A stretch of DNA of 64,000 bases, from assembly GCF_000166335.1 (NCBI RefSeq), contig NC_014657.1:984501-1048500 (forward strand), given 5' to 3'. The position numbers were made by a program, and so were the translations under genes. Below the pieces are notes generated by a model. It was not told the DNA's origin. It did no database searches and saw nothing but the letters and a program-made list of their open reading frames with translations. This DNA is from Caldicellulosiruptor owensensis OL (GTDB taxonomy: Bacteria > Bacillota > Thermoanaerobacteria > Caldicellulosiruptorales > Caldicellulosiruptoraceae). Shown here one piece after another: positions 54,555-63,460 of the stretch (positions are counted from its first letter, which is position 1; each line of letters starts with the position of its first letter).

Positions 54555-55028
54555 ATGTTCAAAGTAGGAATTGGCTATGATGTTCACAGATTTGCTGAGG
54601 GAAGAAAACTCATATTAGGTGGTGTTGAAATACCTTTTGAAAAGGGTCTTCTGGGGCATTCAGATGCAGATGTTTTAGTCCATGCGATAATTGACGCTAT
54701 TCTTGGTGCTATAGGCGAAAATGATATTGGAAGACTTTTTCCAGATAGCAATCCCGAGTATAAAGATATCTGTAGTTTGATTCTTCTTAAGGAGGTTGCA
54801 AGGATTTTGGAGAACAAAAATATGAAAATTGTAAATATAGATTCTACGATAGTTGCCCAAAGACCAAAAATTTCTCCCTATGCTAATGATATGAAGAATA
54901 AAATTGCAGATTGCCTAAGGATTAATTCTACTCAAGTAAATATAAAAGGAAAAACAACAGAAGGACTTGGATTCGAAGGAAGAGAAGAAGGTATTTCAGC
55001 GTATGCAGTTGTTTTAATTTGCGAATAA
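54555..55028 (+). CDS. ispF: 2-C-methyl-D-erythritol 2,4-cyclodiphosphate synthase
   Basis: This MEP-pathway enzyme forms the cyclodiphosphate intermediate of isoprenoid synthesis. The zinc ligands are in GYDVHRF and [30 protein letters not shown] is the C-terminal signature. ATG 54555 with GAAAGGAG upstream gives 157 residues; an open frame from 54495 has no ribosome site. It lies 73 nt before nurA, and may share its transcript. Confidence 0.95.
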
Positions 55029-55101
55029 ATGTTTGATAAAATGATAGAAGTGAGGTATAATTTAGATATATACTGACAAATAATTTTTTGGATGTGATAG
55101 T

Positions 55102-56277
55102 GTGTTAGATATTTACAGATTATCAGCACAAATTAATGAAAAGAAAGAGGTTTTAGAAAAAAATAATAAAGAATTAAAAACGCAAATTGGAAATATTATT
55201 TCTTTTTTAAATTCTGCAGACAAAGAGAAAATTCAAAATGTTTTAGCTAAAATTCCTCGCAAAGATGAAAAGAATGAGATTTTATTTTGTCTTCCTTACT
55301 ATAGCAATTATAATGAGTTTTTGAATCCAAAAAGGTGTCTTTTAAATACTCAGTATCAGGTTTTTGCAGTAGACGGTAGTAATACAGAAATAGACAGACA
55401 TATTCAAATCCCTTATTATATATTGAATATTGCCTGCATCTTTATTGAATACAATGAAAAAGATAGCAAATTTGAATATCAAACTTTTCCTTATATATAC
55501 TTCGACCAAGAGATATATTCTTCCAAAGATGAGGCTACAATTAAAAATTCTTCTGAGATATCACAAGAGCGCCAGCAGAAAGAATTTGAGATCATCTTAG
55601 AATATATAGAAAATAGTAGTAATCAGACAGATAAGCTTAAAATAGTGCTTTACGATGGAAATCTAATTGACTGGACTCAGGACAGACAAAATATCAGATT
55701 CGGTAGAAAAGCAAATTCCTCCCTGGAAAAAATATTTCTTTTAGCAGAGCAAAAAGAGATAGCTATATGTGGCTTTATTTCGTATCCCAAAAATGCTATA
55801 ATTTCTAACATTTATAGAATATTTACATGTGAAAAAACAAAGATTGGCTGTAGAGAATGTGAAAGAGAACGAAAAAGAGAATGCGAAAAGGTAGGCAGAA
55901 TAAGAGATATTATTTTATTTTCAAAGCTGGGCAAAGGAGAGCATTCCCAAGTGTTTTATACCTTGGGTAGAGCTTTTGATGAGTTTGAAAAGACAGATAT
56001 AGGATTTGTATATTTGAATACAGGTTACGAGATAGCGCGAATAGAATTTCCTCTTTACATTGCCAATAATAAAGAGTGGCTTGAAAATGTAATAGGTGCA
56101 ATTTATCATCAGTGTCAACTTGGTTTTGGTTATCCAATATCTTTGACTCATGCTCATGAATTTTCTGTTATATCTAAGGATGATAGGATTGTTGTAGAAA
56201 CTTTGATGTCAGGTTTTGAAGATAATATTGTGCACTATTCAGCAAAGAAAAACAACAAAATTCAAAAAATTGTATAA
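55102..56277 (+). CDS. nurA: NurA-family 5'-3' nuclease
   Basis: NurA is the nuclease partner of HerA in DNA end resection, known mainly from archaea and some thermophilic bacteria. The RNase H-like core shows Asp91 in FAVDGS, a second acidic strand at IVLYDGNL (Asp185), and late HAHEFS. The N-terminal 30 residues are coiled coil. A Cys cluster at 243-261 (Cys243, 250, 253 and 261) lies in a basic insert (RECERERKREC) and may bind a metal. At 391 residues it is a normal NurA. It starts a five-gene run with small gaps (17, 7, 26 and 26 nt). The start codon is GTG at 55102. Confidence 0.88.
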   Translation: MLDIYRLSAQINEKKEVLEKNNKELKTQIGNIISFLNSADKEKIQNVLAKIPRKDEKNEILFCLPYYSNYNEFLNPKRCLLNTQYQVFAVDGSNTEIDRHIQIPYYILNIACIFIEYNEKDSKFEYQTFPYIYFDQEIYSSKDEATIKNSSEISQERQQKEFEIILEYIENSSNQTDKLKIVLYDGNLIDWTQDRQNIRFGRKANSSLEKIFLLAEQKEIAICGFISYPKNAIISNIYRIFTCEKTKIGCRECERERKRECEKVGRIRDIILFSKLGKGEHSQVFYTLGRAFDEFEKTDIGFVYLNTGYEIARIEFPLYIANNKEWLENVIGAIYHQCQLGFGYPISLTHAHEFSVISKDDRIVVETLMSGFEDNIVHYSAKKNNKIQKIV

Positions 56278-56294
56278 AAGGAGTAGTATTCAAG

Positions 56295-56888
56295 ATGGTG
56301 GTTGGAGAGATAATAGATGTCTCTTTTACTCAGCTTACATGTGAGGCAAAAGATTTAAACAATGTACCTACTCCAGGGAAATTTATAAAGTTTCACTTGG
56401 ATGATTATACAGTTATTGGTTGTGTTATAAGATATGATATAGGCAGTATCTCTGAGGGAGGGTATCCAAGAGCTTTATGGAAATCTCCAGAAGAGATAAA
56501 GAGTCAGTATCCACAGATTGATCAGATTTTGAAAGCTTATTTTAAGTGTGTTGTTCTTGGTTACATAGTAGAGGATAAGTATGTTGGGTGTCTTCCCGAC
56601 AGAAGTATAAGACTTCACAGTTTAGTTGAACCGGCAAATGAAAGAGAAATTCTTCTTGCTACGCAAAATGGTCTTTTTCTAAATTCGGTGCTAAAAACAA
56701 AGGATGTTGATATTGCTGAGGTTGTTCCATGGATGCTTTTTTTTGCATATATTGCAAGAGGAAAAGATTATCACTATTTGGAACAGATGGGAAAGGCTTT
56801 AAATGCTTATTTAAAATATGACCTGAATCTTCTTGAGCCTATAATTGAGAGATTAGAAAATCTAATAATGACAGTACAGGAAAGGTGA
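56295..56888 (+). CDS. Uncharacterised protein with HAS-barrel-like N-terminus, between nurA and herA
   Basis: A 197-residue protein. Residues 1-50 (VGEIIDVSFTQLTCEAKD, VPTPGKFIKFHLDDYTVIGCVIR) look like the small beta-barrel found at the N-terminus of HerA and ATP synthase subunits. Residues 55-115 include a mixed segment (PRALWKSPEEIKSQYPQI) and VGCLPDRSIRLHSLV; the C-terminal third is helical. No catalytic motif is visible. It is 17 nt after nurA and 7 nt before herA, so it is very probably a component or adaptor of the same complex. The assignment is from pattern and position, not from a known family name. Confidence 0.75.
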   Translation: MVVGEIIDVSFTQLTCEAKDLNNVPTPGKFIKFHLDDYTVIGCVIRYDIGSISEGGYPRALWKSPEEIKSQYPQIDQILKAYFKCVVLGYIVEDKYVGCLPDRSIRLHSLVEPANEREILLATQNGLFLNSVLKTKDVDIAEVVPWMLFFAYIARGKDYHYLEQMGKALNAYLKYDLNLLEPIIERLENLIMTVQER

Positions 56889-56895
56889 TTGAGAT

Positions 56896-58560
56896 ATGTC
56901 AGGCAGTATATATGAAGAAAACAAAATTGGCAAAATCATAGGTGGTTCTTACTCTGAAGGTCTTGCAATAAAGGTAGAAGATGATTCTGTGGTAGAAAAT
57001 ACAAGAATAGGTGCAATTCTCGTCAGTCAAACAGAAAAAAGAAAGTATTATTGTATGCTTACTGACATGGTAATAGAAGGTATGAATAAACAGGCATTGT
57101 CAGAACTTCCGCGAGGAAACTCAAGCTCGCTTTTGAGCAGGATTACAAGAGGAACCTCTATTTATAATGTGTTCAAGGCACAACCAGTTCTTTCATATGA
57201 CCTTGAAGAAAAGAAAAATCAGCCGATAAGAAACATACCACCTCATGCTTCAAGTGTCAGAAGAGCTACGTATGATGATATTTCAGATGTATTTGGGAGT
57301 TTCGAAAAAAATCCAAAACGTTTTTTTCCAGTTGGAAGTGTTCTTGACATGGATGAAAGTTCAACAGTATGCATCGATATGGAAAGATTTATTGAACGAA
57401 GCAGTGGCATTTACGGGAGGACTGGAACTGGAAAATCGTTTATTGCAAGATTGATAATGGCTGGAATTATACTCTGCGATAAAGCTTCACTTCTCATTTT
57501 TGATGCTCATTCAGACCATGGACCTGATCTTGTTGACGAAGAAAACAGACATGTTAAAGGTCTGAAAAGTCTTTTTGGAAGTAAAGTCCAGATAATGACA
57601 ATTGAAAATTCCTCATCAATGGCAGGTATTTTGCCGATTGAGATTGATGTTAGAGATGTTGAGATCGAGGATATTTTATCAATTGCAGAAGAGCTAAAAC
57701 TCAATGAGACAGCACAACAGGTTATGATTGCACTTAAAAACAGGTTAGAAACAGAAGGTAAACACTGGCTTGAAGAGATACTTGTAAATGGTGAAGACTT
57801 AGCAGAAAGGTTTAAAGACAGTGAAGCTGTTGTCAACAGAAGTTCACTTTTAGCGCTTATTAGAAAACTTTCTGTGTTAAAAGAATTGCCCTACCTTAAA
57901 TACGGCAGACGACCTGGTACAAACTCAATTGATGTTATTTTGAATTATCTTCAAAGAGGTATTAGCGTTGATATAACATTTAGCAAAAGTGATAAATTAC
58001 TTCATTATCTTTTTGTTACAAATGTATTATCAAGACGTATTTACCATAGATACATGGAGATGTATGAAAAATATGCTTCAAACAAGCAAAAGTATCCTTC
58101 TCCAAGGCCACTTGTGATTGCAATTGAAGAAGCACACAGATTTTTATCGCCCGATGTTGCAAAACAGACAATATTTGGAACAATAGCAAGAGAGATGAGA
58201 AAAGCAAAGGTAAGCCTTATGTGTATAGACCAGAGACCTTCTCAGATAGACAGTGAGATTGCATCACAAATTGGAACAAGAGTTATTTTATCTCTTTCTG
58301 ATGAAGCTGACATTGCTAGTGCACTTGCTGGTATGAAGAACAGCAAACAGCTAAGATCAATTATAGAGTCACTTGATTCAAAACAGCAGGCTTTATTGAT
58401 AGGTCATGCAGTCCCTATGCCAATTGCAATAAAGACAAGAGGGTATGATAATAGCTTTTATGATTTTGTTTCAATTTATGCCCAAAAACATGAGGTGGAC
58501 GAAAAGTACGAAAAAACGATAGAGGTATCTAAGAAGTGGCTTGATGAGATGGGCTATTAA
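56896..58560 (+). CDS. herA: HerA-type hexameric DNA translocase
   Basis: HerA is a FtsK-like ATPase that drives NurA on DNA ends. The N-terminal HAS barrel (residues about 8-100) is followed by Walker A GRTGTGKS (174-181), the IFDAHSDHG strand, Walker B LVIAIEEAHRF (Glu411-412), a sensor/Q-like MCIDQRPSQID and a C-terminal GHAVPMPIAIKTR strand that closes the ring. It is 554 residues, typical for HerA. GTGATTGAGAT lies upstream of the ATG. In archaea herA and nurA flank mre11 and rad50, as here. Confidence 0.92.
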   Translation: MSGSIYEENKIGKIIGGSYSEGLAIKVEDDSVVENTRIGAILVSQTEKRKYYCMLTDMVIEGMNKQALSELPRGNSSSLLSRITRGTSIYNVFKAQPVLSYDLEEKKNQPIRNIPPHASSVRRATYDDISDVFGSFEKNPKRFFPVGSVLDMDESSTVCIDMERFIERSSGIYGRTGTGKSFIARLIMAGIILCDKASLLIFDAHSDHGPDLVDEENRHVKGLKSLFGSKVQIMTIENSSSMAGILPIEIDVRDVEIEDILSIAEELKLNETAQQVMIALKNRLETEGKHWLEEILVNGEDLAERFKDSEAVVNRSSLLALIRKLSVLKELPYLKYGRRPGTNSIDVILNYLQRGISVDITFSKSDKLLHYLFVTNVLSRRIYHRYMEMYEKYASNKQKYPSPRPLVIAIEEAHRFLSPDVAKQTIFGTIAREMRKAKVSLMCIDQRPSQIDSEIASQIGTRVILSLSDEADIASALAGMKNSKQLRSIIESLDSKQQALLIGHAVPMPIAIKTRGYDNSFYDFVSIYAQKHEVDEKYEKTIEVSKKWLDEMGY

Positions 58561-58586
58561 AAATTTTTCTAAAGAGGGATAATAAA

Positions 58587-59849
58587 ATGGCAATAAGAGG
58601 AGTTCATACAGCTGATCTTCATTTTGGTGTAACAACTTACAGCCGCGAAACCCCGGATGGGCTTGGCTCACGTGTACATGATTTTTTCAAAACATTTGAC
58701 AGGATACTGGAGTTTATACGAGAAAACAGTATTGATCTTTTGCTTATAACAGGCGATATTTTTAAAGACAGAGAACCAAACTCTACGCTGAGGAATATGT
58801 TTTACAAGAGGGTTGTGGATATTTCAAAAGGAGGCGTTTTGGTGGCAATAGTGCCAGGCAATCATGATATGCATCCGTTTGAGACAAAAGATCATTCTGT
58901 GAAGGTTTTTGAAATATTCGACCAGCCAAACATTGTTGTGATGGACAGACCTTTTGAAACCAGAGAATTTGAAATAAGAGGTGAAAAGCTTCGCATTGTG
59001 GCTGTGCCATACCTTTATCTTGAAAGGTTTGTGGATGAGACATTTCCTCAAAAGACAGAAGAGATTGATATGATAGCAGCCAATTTTTTTGAGAAAAAAC
59101 TAAGCCAGGTTTTGGACTCTTCAGAAGATAATATTCCTACAATTCTTGCAGGACATTTTACTGTAGTAGAGGCGCAGATTGGCAGTGAAAGATCAATTAT
59201 GCTTGGCAAAGACATAAAAGTGCCTCTTTCTTGCCTTTTAAATCCAAAGTTAAAATTTGTTGCGCTGGGTCACATTCATAAACCTCAAATTTTGCATGCA
59301 GCAAACCCTACTGTGTTGTATTGTGGCTCGCCTGACAGGATAGATTTTTCTGAAGCAAACGACAGCAAGGGGTTTGTTGTGTTTGAGATAGACAAAGATG
59401 ATTTTAGGTTTGAGTTTCAACCAGTTAAGGTAAGACCTTTTTGCCAGTTGGAGATTGATGTGTTTGAAGACGAAGTAGAAAATCTCACCAAAAAGCTTCT
59501 TGACAAAATAGAAGAGAAAATACAAGTGTTTGAGCAAAATACTTCAAATAGTATTCAGGTGTCGGTTGTAAAGCTCATAATAAAAACTCAAAGTTTGATA
59601 AAAGAAAAGATTGATGTTGGACTTGTTGAAAGGTTTTTGAGAGACAGATGTTTTGTTTTAGCGCCTATCGAAATTGAGGTAGTTGACTCAAAGAAAGATT
59701 TTAGAATTGCTGAGGTTGATGAAAAGTCAGACCCTGTTGATGCATTTGAAAAGTTTTTATCAGCAAGCCAGAAATACAGGGGTATAGAGAATAAAGATAA
59801 GGTTGTATCAGAATTTAAAAAGCTTTTGTATGAAGTTCAGGAAAAATGA
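58587..59849 (+). CDS. mre11: Mre11/SbcD-type DNA repair nuclease
   Basis: A Mn-dependent phosphodiesterase that processes DNA ends with Rad50. Five phosphoesterase motifs are in order: HTADLHFG, TGDIFKDRE, VPGNHDMHP, AGHFT and GHIHKPQ. HTADLHFG is closer to archaeal Mre11 than the HTSDWHLG usual in SbcD. The C-terminal 130 residues form the capping and Rad50-binding parts. At 420 residues it is normal. It lies 26 nt after herA. Confidence 0.93.
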   Translation: MAIRGVHTADLHFGVTTYSRETPDGLGSRVHDFFKTFDRILEFIRENSIDLLLITGDIFKDREPNSTLRNMFYKRVVDISKGGVLVAIVPGNHDMHPFETKDHSVKVFEIFDQPNIVVMDRPFETREFEIRGEKLRIVAVPYLYLERFVDETFPQKTEEIDMIAANFFEKKLSQVLDSSEDNIPTILAGHFTVVEAQIGSERSIMLGKDIKVPLSCLLNPKLKFVALGHIHKPQILHAANPTVLYCGSPDRIDFSEANDSKGFVVFEIDKDDFRFEFQPVKVRPFCQLEIDVFEDEVENLTKKLLDKIEEKIQVFEQNTSNSIQVSVVKLIIKTQSLIKEKIDVGLVERFLRDRCFVLAPIEIEVVDSKKDFRIAEVDEKSDPVDAFEKFLSASQKYRGIENKDKVVSEFKKLLYEVQEK

Positions 59850-59876
59850 AAGCACAGCAAGAGGTGGGGATGATAT

Positions 59877-62450
59877 TTGAGACCTCTTTTTTTGAGGGTT
59901 GAAAATTTCAAATCATACAAGGATACTCAGAACGAGATTGATTTTAGCAATATAAAAGTAGCTTGTATAATAGGTAAAAACGGCAATGGAAAATCTTCTA
60001 TTGCAGAGGCAATTGCCTGGGCACTTTTTGGCGAGTTTGAAAGACTTCAAACAGGAAAACGAGGAAAAGTTGCAGAAACAGAGTATATAAACTCACATAG
60101 GGATTATATGCAGGTTGAATTTGAATTTGAGTTGAATAAGACCATATATAAAGTTGTGAGAAGACTTGACAGGAAAGGAAAAAAGTATCTTTCACTCTTT
60201 GTTAAAAAAGGAGACAGTCTTATACCTATAAATGAAGCAACTTACACCCAGACTCAAGTAAAGCTTCAGAATATTTTGGGAATAGATTTTAACGTCTTTT
60301 TGCACTCAGCATATCTTTCTCAAAAACGAACAGAAGATTTTTTGCTGTCATCCCCTGAAGACAGGCGTGAAGTTCTTGCGAAGATATTGAACTTGAGTGT
60401 TTATGACAGGATAAACGAGCTTGCGAAAGAAAAACGAAAAGAAATAAAGGTTTTGCTGGATATAAAGAACAGAGAAATAGACGAAGAAAATAAGATTTTG
60501 TCAGAGGAAGAGTCTATAAAATCTTTAGTGGCTGATTTGGAAAAGAAGAGAATCACAATAGAAGCTGAATTAAACGGTTTGAGAAATAGACTAAATGCCT
60601 TTATTTCGCAGAGGTCTGAAATAGAACAAAAACTTGATATATTAAATCAGAAAAAGAATGAAATGATAGAACTTCAAAGAAAAGCTGATGAGATAAGGTA
60701 TAAGTTTGATGCTGCGAGAAAAGAGCTTTTAAAAATTGAAGAAAAGTTAAAGGAAGAAGATAAGATAACTGCAATGGTTAAAGAGTACGAGATGATAAAA
60801 GAAAAGGTTGAACTTAAGAGAAAGGATTATGAAAAGTATCTTGAGCTCAAAAACAAAATGGTTTTATGTGAAAGGGATATAAAAAACAAAATAGATCAGA
60901 AAAAGATATTTGAAAAAAATATTGAAGAGAGTAATTTACAGCTGAATAAAGAAACTTCTGAGATTTCAAAGTATGAGGAAGAGATGAAAAAAGTGGAGGT
61001 AGAAATTTCGAAGGTCGAAAATGAGCTGGGAAAAGTAAAGCAGTATAAACAGGAACAAGAGAAAAAAAGAGAGGAAATAGTAAAACATGAAAAATTGTTG
61101 GAGGTAGTGGAGAACAAATTAAAAGAACTTGCTTCAAGTTACAGACTTATAGAGGCAAATCAGGGAAGGTGCCCAGTATGCTTGCGTCAAATTAATGGTC
61201 AGGAAGAAAAAGAACATATAAAAAATGAAATTGCAGCCCAGGGAAAAGAATTTAAACAAAGAAGAGATAGTTTGACCAAAAAACTTGAAATTCTGAGAAA
61301 AGAGTTTTCTGAGCTTGAAGAAAAGATAAAAAATGAAGAAATTCTGAGGACAAGAGAAAAGAAGCTTCACGGAATGTTAGAAAATCTTAAGGCTAAGATA
61401 GACCAAAAAACACAAAATATTTCAAATTTACAAAATTCAATAGTTCAGGTAACCCAAAGCATAAAGTTTTGTGAAGAAGAAATAGAAAGGTTAAAAGAAG
61501 AGATGACATACCTAAAAAGAGAAATTTCCATTTTGAGTTTTGATGAGAATTACTACACCCAGCTTTTGCAAAGAGAAAAAGAACTTGAAATATATCAGAG
61601 ACTTTTTAGCGAGCTTACTGTGAACAAGGTGAAAGCTGAGAATTTAAAAAAGGGGATACTTGAGTATCAAGAACAGGAAAAAGAGATTTTGAAAAAGGTT
61701 GAGGATTTAAAGCATGAGATAGCAAATTTATCTACTTTTGCGCATGCTGTGATGCTTGAAAAGGTAAAGTCAGATATTCTGACCTGTGAAAGTAAGATAA
61801 AAAATCTTCAAGAAAGTCTCAATTCTGTTTTAAAAGAATTGGGAATCCTTGAGCAGAAACTAAATCAGATTGAAGAGGCAAAAGAGAAGCTCTCAAGGCT
61901 TGAAAGTGAAATAGAAGAGATGAAAAAAAAGATTGAAATATACGATATAATAATAGATATCACCGGGCCTGATGGAATAAAAAACGAGATAATTGCAAAT
62001 ACATTACCGCAAATAAGAGATGAGGCAAACAAATTTTTAAAGATCCTGACAAATGGAGCATTTTCAATAGACTTTAAAACTCAAAGAGAAACAACATCTG
62101 GCAAAACAATAGAGACCCTTCAAATAGAGATCTCTGATGCAAGTGGGACAAGAAACTATGAACTTTTTTCAGGTGGTGAGCTTTTCAGGATAAATTTTGC
62201 GATAAGAATAGCTCTTTCAAAAGTTTTGCTTAAAAGATCGGGTGCTTCCATAAGAATGCTGATTTTAGACGAAGGATTTGGTTCTCAGGATGAAGAGGGT
62301 AAAGACCACATTGTCGAGTGTCTGAATAGAATCAAAGACCAGTTTGACACTATACTTGTTATAACACACATTGAAGATTTAATGGATGCCTTTGACCAGA
62401 AGATTATTGTTAAAAAAGATATGGAAGGTTCTAAAATTTTTGTTGTATAA
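59877..62450 (+). CDS. rad50: Rad50/SbcC-type SMC-like ATPase
   Basis: The ATP-driven clamp partner of Mre11. Walker A is IIGKNGNGKSS; the Q-loop is at LHSAYLSQKRTEDFLL; two long coiled coils flank a zinc hook, CPVC (Cys432, Cys435), at mid-protein. The signature FSGGELFRINFAI and Walker B MLILDEGFGSQDEEGKD close the site. At 857 residues it is in the archaeal Rad50 range and shorter than E. coli SbcC. The start is TTG 59877 with GAGGTGGGGATG upstream. Confidence 0.94.
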   Translation: MRPLFLRVENFKSYKDTQNEIDFSNIKVACIIGKNGNGKSSIAEAIAWALFGEFERLQTGKRGKVAETEYINSHRDYMQVEFEFELNKTIYKVVRRLDRKGKKYLSLFVKKGDSLIPINEATYTQTQVKLQNILGIDFNVFLHSAYLSQKRTEDFLLSSPEDRREVLAKILNLSVYDRINELAKEKRKEIKVLLDIKNREIDEENKILSEEESIKSLVADLEKKRITIEAELNGLRNRLNAFISQRSEIEQKLDILNQKKNEMIELQRKADEIRYKFDAARKELLKIEEKLKEEDKITAMVKEYEMIKEKVELKRKDYEKYLELKNKMVLCERDIKNKIDQKKIFEKNIEESNLQLNKETSEISKYEEEMKKVEVEISKVENELGKVKQYKQEQEKKREEIVKHEKLLEVVENKLKELASSYRLIEANQGRCPVCLRQINGQEEKEHIKNEIAAQGKEFKQRRDSLTKKLEILRKEFSELEEKIKNEEILRTREKKLHGMLENLKAKIDQKTQNISNLQNSIVQVTQSIKFCEEEIERLKEEMTYLKREISILSFDENYYTQLLQREKELEIYQRLFSELTVNKVKAENLKKGILEYQEQEKEILKKVEDLKHEIANLSTFAHAVMLEKVKSDILTCESKIKNLQESLNSVLKELGILEQKLNQIEEAKEKLSRLESEIEEMKKKIEIYDIIIDITGPDGIKNEIIANTLPQIRDEANKFLKILTNGAFSIDFKTQRETTSGKTIETLQIEISDASGTRNYELFSGGELFRINFAIRIALSKVLLKRSGASIRMLILDEGFGSQDEEGKDHIVECLNRIKDQFDTILVITHIEDLMDAFDQKIIVKKDMEGSKIFVV

Positions 62451-62500: not shown

Positions 62501-62842
62501 ATGGCAAAAAATAGATTTCCTGGGCTTGGTGGTGGTTTTAATATAAATCAGCTCCAGAAACAGGCAAAAAAGATGCAAGAGGAAATAGAAAAATTGCAGG
62601 AGGAATTAAATCAAAAAGAGATTGAGGTAAGCAGCGGCGGTGGTGCTGTCAAAGTTATTATCAATGGTAAAAAAGAGGTAAAAAGTATTCAGATATTACC
62701 CGAGGTTGTTGACCCTGAAGATATAGAAACTTTACAGGATTTGATAGTTGCATGTGTAAATGAAGCTATAAGAAAGGTTGATAAGATGGTAGAAGAAGAG
62801 ATGCAAAAAGTTACAGGGTTTGGTATCCCAGGTCTTTTTTAA
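62501..62842 (+). CDS. YbaB/EbfC nucleoid-associated protein
   Basis: A small DNA-binding dimer usually encoded with recR. Residues 1-20 carry FPGLGGGFN; the QLQKQAKKMQEEIEKLQEELNQKEIEVSSGGGAVKVIINGKKEV block is diagnostic. It has 113 residues. AAGGAGG is 11 nt before the ATG. It lies 50 nt after rad50 and 18 nt before recR. Confidence 0.93.
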   Translation: MAKNRFPGLGGGFNINQLQKQAKKMQEEIEKLQEELNQKEIEVSSGGGAVKVIINGKKEVKSIQILPEVVDPEDIETLQDLIVACVNEAIRKVDKMVEEEMQKVTGFGIPGLF

Positions 62843-62860: not shown

Positions 62861-63460
62861 ATGCAGAATAAAGAAACTTCTATATCAAAACTCGTTCAGC
62901 AGCTTGAAAAGCTTCCAGGTATTGGTCAGAAGACCGCCCAGAGACTTGCGTTTTACATCATAAATATGAAAACTGAAGATGTCAAAGCACTTGCTGATGC
63001 TATCTTGAGTGCTAAAATTAGCACAAAACTATGCAAGGTATGCTGTAACTTTACAGAAGAAGAAGTATGTCCTATATGTAAAGATGAAAAGAGAGATAGA
63101 AGTGTTATATGTGTTGTAGAAGAACCACAGGATGTTGCAGCGCTTGAAAGAGTAAAGGAATATAAAGGACTTTACCATGTGCTCCACGGTGCAATATCCC
63201 CGCTCAAAGGTAAATACCCTGAACAGCTTACAATTGATGTTCTGTTAAAGAGACTTTCTGACCCAGCAATAAAAGAGGTTATAATTGCTACAAATCCTGA
63301 TGTTGACGGTGAAGCAACAGCCTCCTACTTAGCGCGGCTTATAAAACCAATGGGTATCAAGGTTACAAGAATTGCCAGGGGTATTCCTGTTGGCGGTGAT
63401 ATCGAGTACGCTGATGAGGTTACAATTCTCAAAGCAATAGAAGGAAGAAGAGAAATTTAG
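62861..63460 (+). CDS. recR: Recombination mediator RecR
   Basis: RecR forms a ring clamp and, with RecFO, loads RecA at gaps. It has an N-terminal HhH ([17 protein letters not shown]), a four-Cys zinc finger ([19 protein letters not shown]), a toprim core ([26 protein letters not shown]) and a Walker-like C-terminus ([17 protein letters not shown]). Its 199 residues are standard. Its position directly behind the HerA-NurA-Mre11-Rad50 genes clusters two steps of recombinational repair. Confidence 0.96.

Follow-up and report, generated by a model that had tools for sequence, protein, structure and literature searches.

A stand-alone HAS-barrel protein as a probable third component of HerA–NurA in a bacterial nurA-herA-mre11-rad50 operon

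RESULTS

A predicted free HAS-barrel protein is encoded between nurA and herA

We analysed a 64,000-nt stretch of the genome of Caldicellulosiruptor owensensis OL (contig NC_014657.1, positions 984,501 to 1,048,500; hereafter the window, whose own positions are used throughout), which is a single contig of 2.43 Mb, and found an operon of five genes in the order nurA-P2-herA-mre11-rad50, all with open frames on the plus strand. The second gene encodes a protein, named P2 here, whose predicted fold is that of the HAS-barrel, which HerA uses to dock NurA, and P2 is probably a third subunit of bacterial HerA–NurA. With some confidence we favour the view that this is a chromosomal, probably SOS-regulated operon for DNA-end processing and that it represents a bacterial HerA–NurA lineage using three dedicated proteins, not two. 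The original prediction for this DNA had described four intact plus-strand genes with complete motifs, separated by 7–26 nt. This holds for nurA, herA, mre11 and rad50, but P2 had been overlooked; with that gene included, the intergenic gaps along the operon are 17, 7, 26 and 27 nt, and nurA and herA lie 618 nt apart if it is not counted.

The five-gene order is common to all of the same-genus loci compared, to the sister genus and to ten loci from two further genera of the class, and was also found in four further Bacillota genera. When measured against same-genus relatives, the ratio of non-synonymous to synonymous substitution rates (dN/dS) was approximately 0.1 across the operon genes (0.07–0.12). 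Because the gene order is kept across Bacillota genera and the dN/dS of P2 itself is 0.08–0.11, the P2 gene is not a chance open frame. One of the ten loci (L037, from a draft genome of class genus g6) has fragmented nurA, mre11 and rad50 genes with P2 and herA intact, which may reflect a sequencing error or decay. A P2–HerA fusion, suggested by an open frame of 769 amino acids (aa), was rejected, as the same frame spans 207 aa in a longer locus.

The fold assignment draws on family scores of P2 relatives and on a predicted structure. Six of the ten P2 homologues scanned scored above the gathering score of the HAS-barrel family PF09378 (27.5–32.5 bits compared with 25.2), and three more fell below the cut-off at E values of 0.0026 or better. 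The window P2 itself gave no PF09378 hit, and its fold match supports membership. An AlphaFold2 model of P2, built from a two-row alignment, had a mean predicted local distance difference test score (pLDDT) of 82 and a predicted template modelling score (pTM) of 0.77; residues 1–113 form a barrel (strands 4–9, 13–18, 30–35, 38–49, 81–92 and 95–97) and residues 116–196 a helical tail. When this model was compared with the PDB using Foldseek, the best 50 of 52 matches with E values up to 0.001 were all to HerA-family chains or a TdpA relative, at solved HerA N-termini, and they included archaeal HerA (4d2i) and the Thermococcus kodakarensis HerA–NurA complex (9x1l).

A free barrel with the fold of the HerA N-terminus could cap or mimic the HerA crown, and in none of the loci compared is its gene joined to herA. 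Both points would also suit a P2 that acts outside the active complex, either as a factor assembling or loading the HerA ring or as a competitive inhibitor that keeps NurA's HAS docking site occupied for as long as there is no damage. In g6, however, nurA/P2 and P2/herA each overlap by 4 nt, and translational coupling on both sides favours roughly matched amounts of the proteins; we regard such a role as unlikely.

P2 accompanies one branch of HerA

In a survey of 399 genomes from 267 genera of the phylum, P2 was detected in 16 genomes (six genera) and the HerA branch of the window in exactly those 16; four of the six genera had been used in building neither the P2 nor the HerA profile. NurA of any kind was present in 72 of the 399 genomes, and in the 56 NurA-bearing genomes without a P2 match it was mostly shorter (~311–348 aa compared with ~390–424 aa). 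A second sample comprised 14 genomes from five bacterial groups, picked solely by the presence of the HerA branch. All 14 carried P2 and all 14 carried NurA, the genes being mostly far apart. A profile of class relatives identified P2 homologues in Cyanobacteria, Chloroflexota, Calditrichota and Chloroherpetonaceae, and the co-occurrence of the trio recurs in Bacillota, Cyanobacteria, Chloroflexota, Calditrichota and on the Chlorobi side. The corresponding Fisher p-values are over-optimistic owing to the relatedness of the genomes.

NurA, Mre11 and Rad50

NurA matched PF09376 with 50.1 bits (cut-off 21) and contains the motifs DGS, DGN and HAH, with conserved acidic, histidine and other residues at Asp91, Arg157, Glu161, Asp185, Glu310, Arg313, Glu315 and His352. 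It also carries a cluster of four cysteine residues (Cys4) that looks like a zinc knuckle. Cysteine residues 243, 250, 253 and 261 (window numbering) are invariant in 12 of 12 Bacillota NurA proteins. Of the 14 genomes picked by HerA, 13 keep four cysteine residues, with varied spacing; among them is a Clostridia metagenome-assembled genome already present in the Bacillota alignment. The cluster is absent from NurA of Chloroherpetonaceae. Cyanobacterial loci L199–L202 encode a second NurA paralogue (402–431 aa) without it. No solved NurA structure matched the window NurA by sequence, and none was close enough for a comparison of the Cys4 cluster.

For Mre11 (SbcD), TIGR00619 scored 111 bits (cut-off 77.65) and the motifs DLH, GDIF, GNHD and GHIH were identified; its nearest solved structures are the SbcD proteins of Thermotoga maritima and Escherichia coli. 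Rad50 (SbcC) matched PF13476 (E 1.5e-23) and scored 238 bits with TIGR00618, below the cut-off of 478.5. It contains GKNGNGKS, SGGE and LILDE motifs and a zinc hook, CPVC, at residues 432–435, and its affinity is mixed, with Methanocaldococcus jannaschii and T. maritima first among solved structures. With phosphoesterase motifs in one protein and an ATP-binding cassette (ABC) ATPase, a zinc hook and a signature motif in the other, the pair is assigned by motif content to Mre11–Rad50/SbcCD.

HerA and its relationship to antiphage systems

HerA matched PF01935 (E 2.9e-34) and contains GRTGTGKS (Walker A) and IEEAH motifs, with the catalytic Glu present. Its HAS-barrel in cis was recognized by PF09378 in relatives of the window HerA only, and a predicted HerA model, poor overall (pLDDT 64) and used for strand order only, resembles P2 in that order. 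HerA of this branch has a barrel of its own and P2 is predicted to be a free one, so that HAS-barrels would be present both in cis and in trans.

The window HerA scored up to 111.6 bits with PADLOC HerA models, and an NCBIfam antiphage HerA matched it approximately as well as archaeal repair HerA did. Such scores would fit an antiviral machine degrading double-stranded DNA, comparable with Sir2–HerA and DUF4297–HerA, with P2 as a sensor or regulator, and an antiviral task has been proposed by the authors of the T. kodakarensis HerA–NurA study (PMC12977600). We consider this quite unlikely for the present operon, given that its chromosomal synteny is stable across the genus, mre11 and rad50 lie inside it, its genes are under strong purifying selection, and recA-recX or ybaB-recR and a LexA-like box adjoin it. 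An assignment to antiphage HerA was likewise rejected: neither NurA nor P2 had a PADLOC match, and the neighbours across loci are recA, recX, cinA, rny, ymdB, ybaB and recR.

Other types of cluster were seen in the class. In other genera (L048 3306–8591 and L049–L051), a second nurA-herA-mre11 cluster type without P2 ends in a short Rad50-like protein of ~431–486 aa, and class genomes L053, L055, L056 and L059 have an extra NurA (457–490 aa) with a different HerA (690–702 aa), possibly a defence pair.

Origin of HerA and reverse gyrase

The original prediction suggested a thermophily-linked repair island, possibly acquired from archaea. Hyperthermophilic archaea typically have rad50-mre11 linked to nurA and herA (PMC2288612), and reverse gyrase lies near the operon throughout the genus. 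In the window, this gene (TIGR01054, 1120 bits) is on the opposite strand and ends 4.46 kb upstream of nurA, close to the ~4 kb originally given. In the HerA tree, however, the window HerA fell inside a bacterial clade (support 100/97) with Bacillota, Cyanobacteria, Chloroflexota and Calditrichota, apart from the HerA proteins of archaea (two) and of defence systems (three). When Caldicellulosiruptor HerA was forced together with archaeal HerA, the cost was 58.5 log units (approximately unbiased test, p ~1e-93), and membership of archaeal HerA was rejected. The archaeal sample in this tree and test consisted of two rows of partial sequence taken from structure alignments, which limits its depth; L052, which has a very long branch, and three other rows were left out. 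Thus archaeal transfer fails for HerA, and the tree is compatible with an ancient inter-domain transfer predating the spread of the HerA clade.

The link to thermophily did not hold up either. Full reverse gyrase was found in 13 of 37 class genomes, namely 12 of 12 from the genus and one without the operon, and operon-bearing class genomes outside the genus had no full reverse gyrase. G023 (class g5; contig C18:41326-44640) has a full reverse gyrase as the sole genome of its otherwise reverse-gyrase-free genus. Furthermore, the P2–HerA–NurA trio is carried by the mesophilic cyanobacteria Moorena and Symplocastrum. Taken together, a thermophily-linked island of archaeal origin appears very improbable.

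Promoter, neighbours and coordinates

A comparison of upstream regions revealed a LexA (DinR)-like box, CGAATAAATGTTTG, which agrees at 13 of 14 positions with CGAACRNRYGTTYG, the LexA (DinR) consensus; no perfect Bacillus subtilis-type SOS box was found near the operon. The box is identical in nine of nine same-genus loci examined (window included) and in the sister genus. The operon promoter is conserved in the nine same-genus loci, and the sister genus keeps the box alone. A genome-wide search for the box pattern with either pyrimidine (Y) allowed at position 5 gave two matches, the box of the operon and a site inside a coding gene, and lexA promoters hold similar sites, GAATGTATGTTTT in this genus and AGAACTAATGTTTG in g6. 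SOS (LexA) control of the operon is likely, because the box is conserved at the promoter, similar to the lexA promoter sites and rare genome-wide.

In the genus, ispF precedes the operon and ybaB-recR comes after it, the latter as originally predicted (Table 1). The order in g6 is cinA-recA-recX-nurA-P2-herA-mre11-rad50-rny-ymdB, with cinA-recA-recX directly upstream. The recA-recX or recR neighbours and the LexA-like box strengthen the earlier proposal of a module for end processing and repair.

Table 1 Features of the operon and its surroundings in the window
Feature	Position	Strand	Description and basis
LexA (DinR)-like box	55022..55035	+	CGAATAAATGTTTG; overlaps ispF stop codon and −35 element
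Promoter, sigma-70 type	55033..55061	+	TTGATA-17-TATAAT; 11/12 consensus positions
nurA	55102..56277	+	Nuclease, 391 aa, long Cys4 type; PF09376 above cut-off, motifs
Cys4 cluster of NurA	55828..55884	+	CX6CX2CX7C, residues 243–261; predicted zinc knuckle
P2	56295..56888	+	Predicted stand-alone HAS-barrel protein, 197 aa; homologues above PF09378 cut-off, AlphaFold2 model, Foldseek
herA	56896..58560	+	Hexameric DNA translocase, 554 aa; PF01935; N-terminal barrel at ~residues 10–123
mre11/sbcD	58587..59849	+	Nuclease, 420 aa; TIGR00619 above cut-off, all motifs
rad50/sbcC	59877..62450	+	ATPase, 857 aa; PF13476 above cut-off, motifs
ybaB	62501..62842	+	Nucleoid-associated protein, downstream neighbour; TIGR00103; position kept in same-genus and sister-genus loci
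recR	62861..63460	+	Recombination mediator, downstream neighbour; TIGR00615; position kept in same-genus and sister-genus loci

A divergent AddAB-like pair

The operon had also been read as a substitute for AddAB. A search for addAB showed that canonical AddA was not found in the genus, although it is present in g2, g4 and g5, yet a divergent AddAB-like pair of adjacent 882-aa and 955-aa proteins is encoded at ~261.4–266.9 kb of the same genome (L047 3376–8910). The 882-aa protein carries UvrD_C, and the 955-aa protein has UvrD and PD-(D/E)XK domains and scored 170 bits to AddA. The host genome may thus encode a RecBCD/AddAB-like enzyme, and the operon can no longer be taken simply as a replacement. 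A similar pair (1041 and 1073 aa) is present in L057.

DISCUSSION

We propose that resection would be the task of the operon. Mre11–Rad50 would recognize and clean a broken DNA end, a HerA hexamer would pump the duplex through its crown of HAS-barrels and on into a NurA dimer that trims the 5′ strand, and the resulting 3′ tail would be handed to RecFOR–RecA. P2 would contact HerA or NurA, supplying HAS-barrels in trans together with its helical tail, most likely as an adaptor or gate at the interface of the HerA crown and NurA, and the Cys4 knuckle of NurA may belong to the P2/HerA/NurA interface. More tentatively, at somewhat below an even chance, the large bacterial HerA–NurA branch of approximately five phyla may be a three-protein complex as a whole, with P2 as a second ring, or as a gate, that separates the HerA crown from a NurA with a zinc knuckle, the published two-component picture fitting one branch only.

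Several observations weigh against a resection operon with P2 as third subunit. The window P2 had no match in Pfam, NCBIfam or PADLOC, its lone NCBIfam hit being meaningless (E 0.12), and only two sequences stand behind its model. The template modelling (TM) scores of P2 with HerA were ~0.4, for a domain inside long chains and with the helical tail largely unmatched. A comparison of P2 with HerA profiles using hhalign gave no signal, and because of this the shared fold rests on the Pfam scores of relatives and the model. Part of the LexA-like box lies in coding sequence, the box departs from the classical consensus at one position, and the AddAB-like pair could perform resection. T. kodakarensis HerA–NurA cleaved each of the two strands, and the authors of that study doubt a role in resection (PMC12977600); deletions of herA or nurA in Deinococcus radiodurans and Thermus gave modest or even improved resistance (PMC9960219).

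Among known systems, the archaeal operon of Saccharolobus, Pyrococcus and Thermococcus contains the same four enzymes, with an N-terminal HAS-barrel in HerA, whereas the present operon differs in its extra free HAS-barrel gene, a Cys4 NurA, a separate bacterial HerA clade and a RecA/RecR/LexA context. D. radiodurans and Thermus (HepA) likewise have a bacterial HerA translocase, NurA and a HAS-barrel docking site, but they have been described as two-component systems without P2 (PMC9960219, PMC5448004). In D. radiodurans the HAS-barrels of HerA mediate NurA binding (PMC9960219), and Deinococcus is said to be without Mre11–Rad50 (PMC12977600). The nearest published gene order is nurA-hepA-sbcD-sbcC of Oceanithermus (PMC5448004). 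The Sir2–HerA and DUF4297–HerA antiphage complexes also combine a HerA hexamer with a partner enzyme, and the top structural matches listed for P2 include HerA chains from these complexes; the partner enzyme is different here and the context is one of repair, not defence. PF09378 is an already known domain, of which P2 relatives are members by score; here, however, the barrel makes up a separate protein, which ends in a conserved helical tail and goes with a single branch of HerA. HerA and NurA have been reported from Cyanobacteria and Firmicutes (PMC8708640) and called present in only few bacteria (PMC9960219). We found no published description of a free HAS-barrel partner of HerA–NurA in the literature covered, which did not extend to the FtsK–HerA survey of Iyer et al. 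(2004), where one might be mentioned. The operon is of a known kind, and P2 would add to it a new and conserved third HerA–NurA component.

How broken ends are opened in bacteria without RecBCD/AddAB, or with divergent forms only, is poorly known, and bacterial HerA–NurA has been treated in print as a two-part system studied in few lineages. In the branch described here a dedicated protein would be added to it, and this probable third subunit is open to structural and genetic work in culturable and non-pathogenic hosts, namely Caldicellulosiruptor, Thermoanaerobacter and cyanobacteria.

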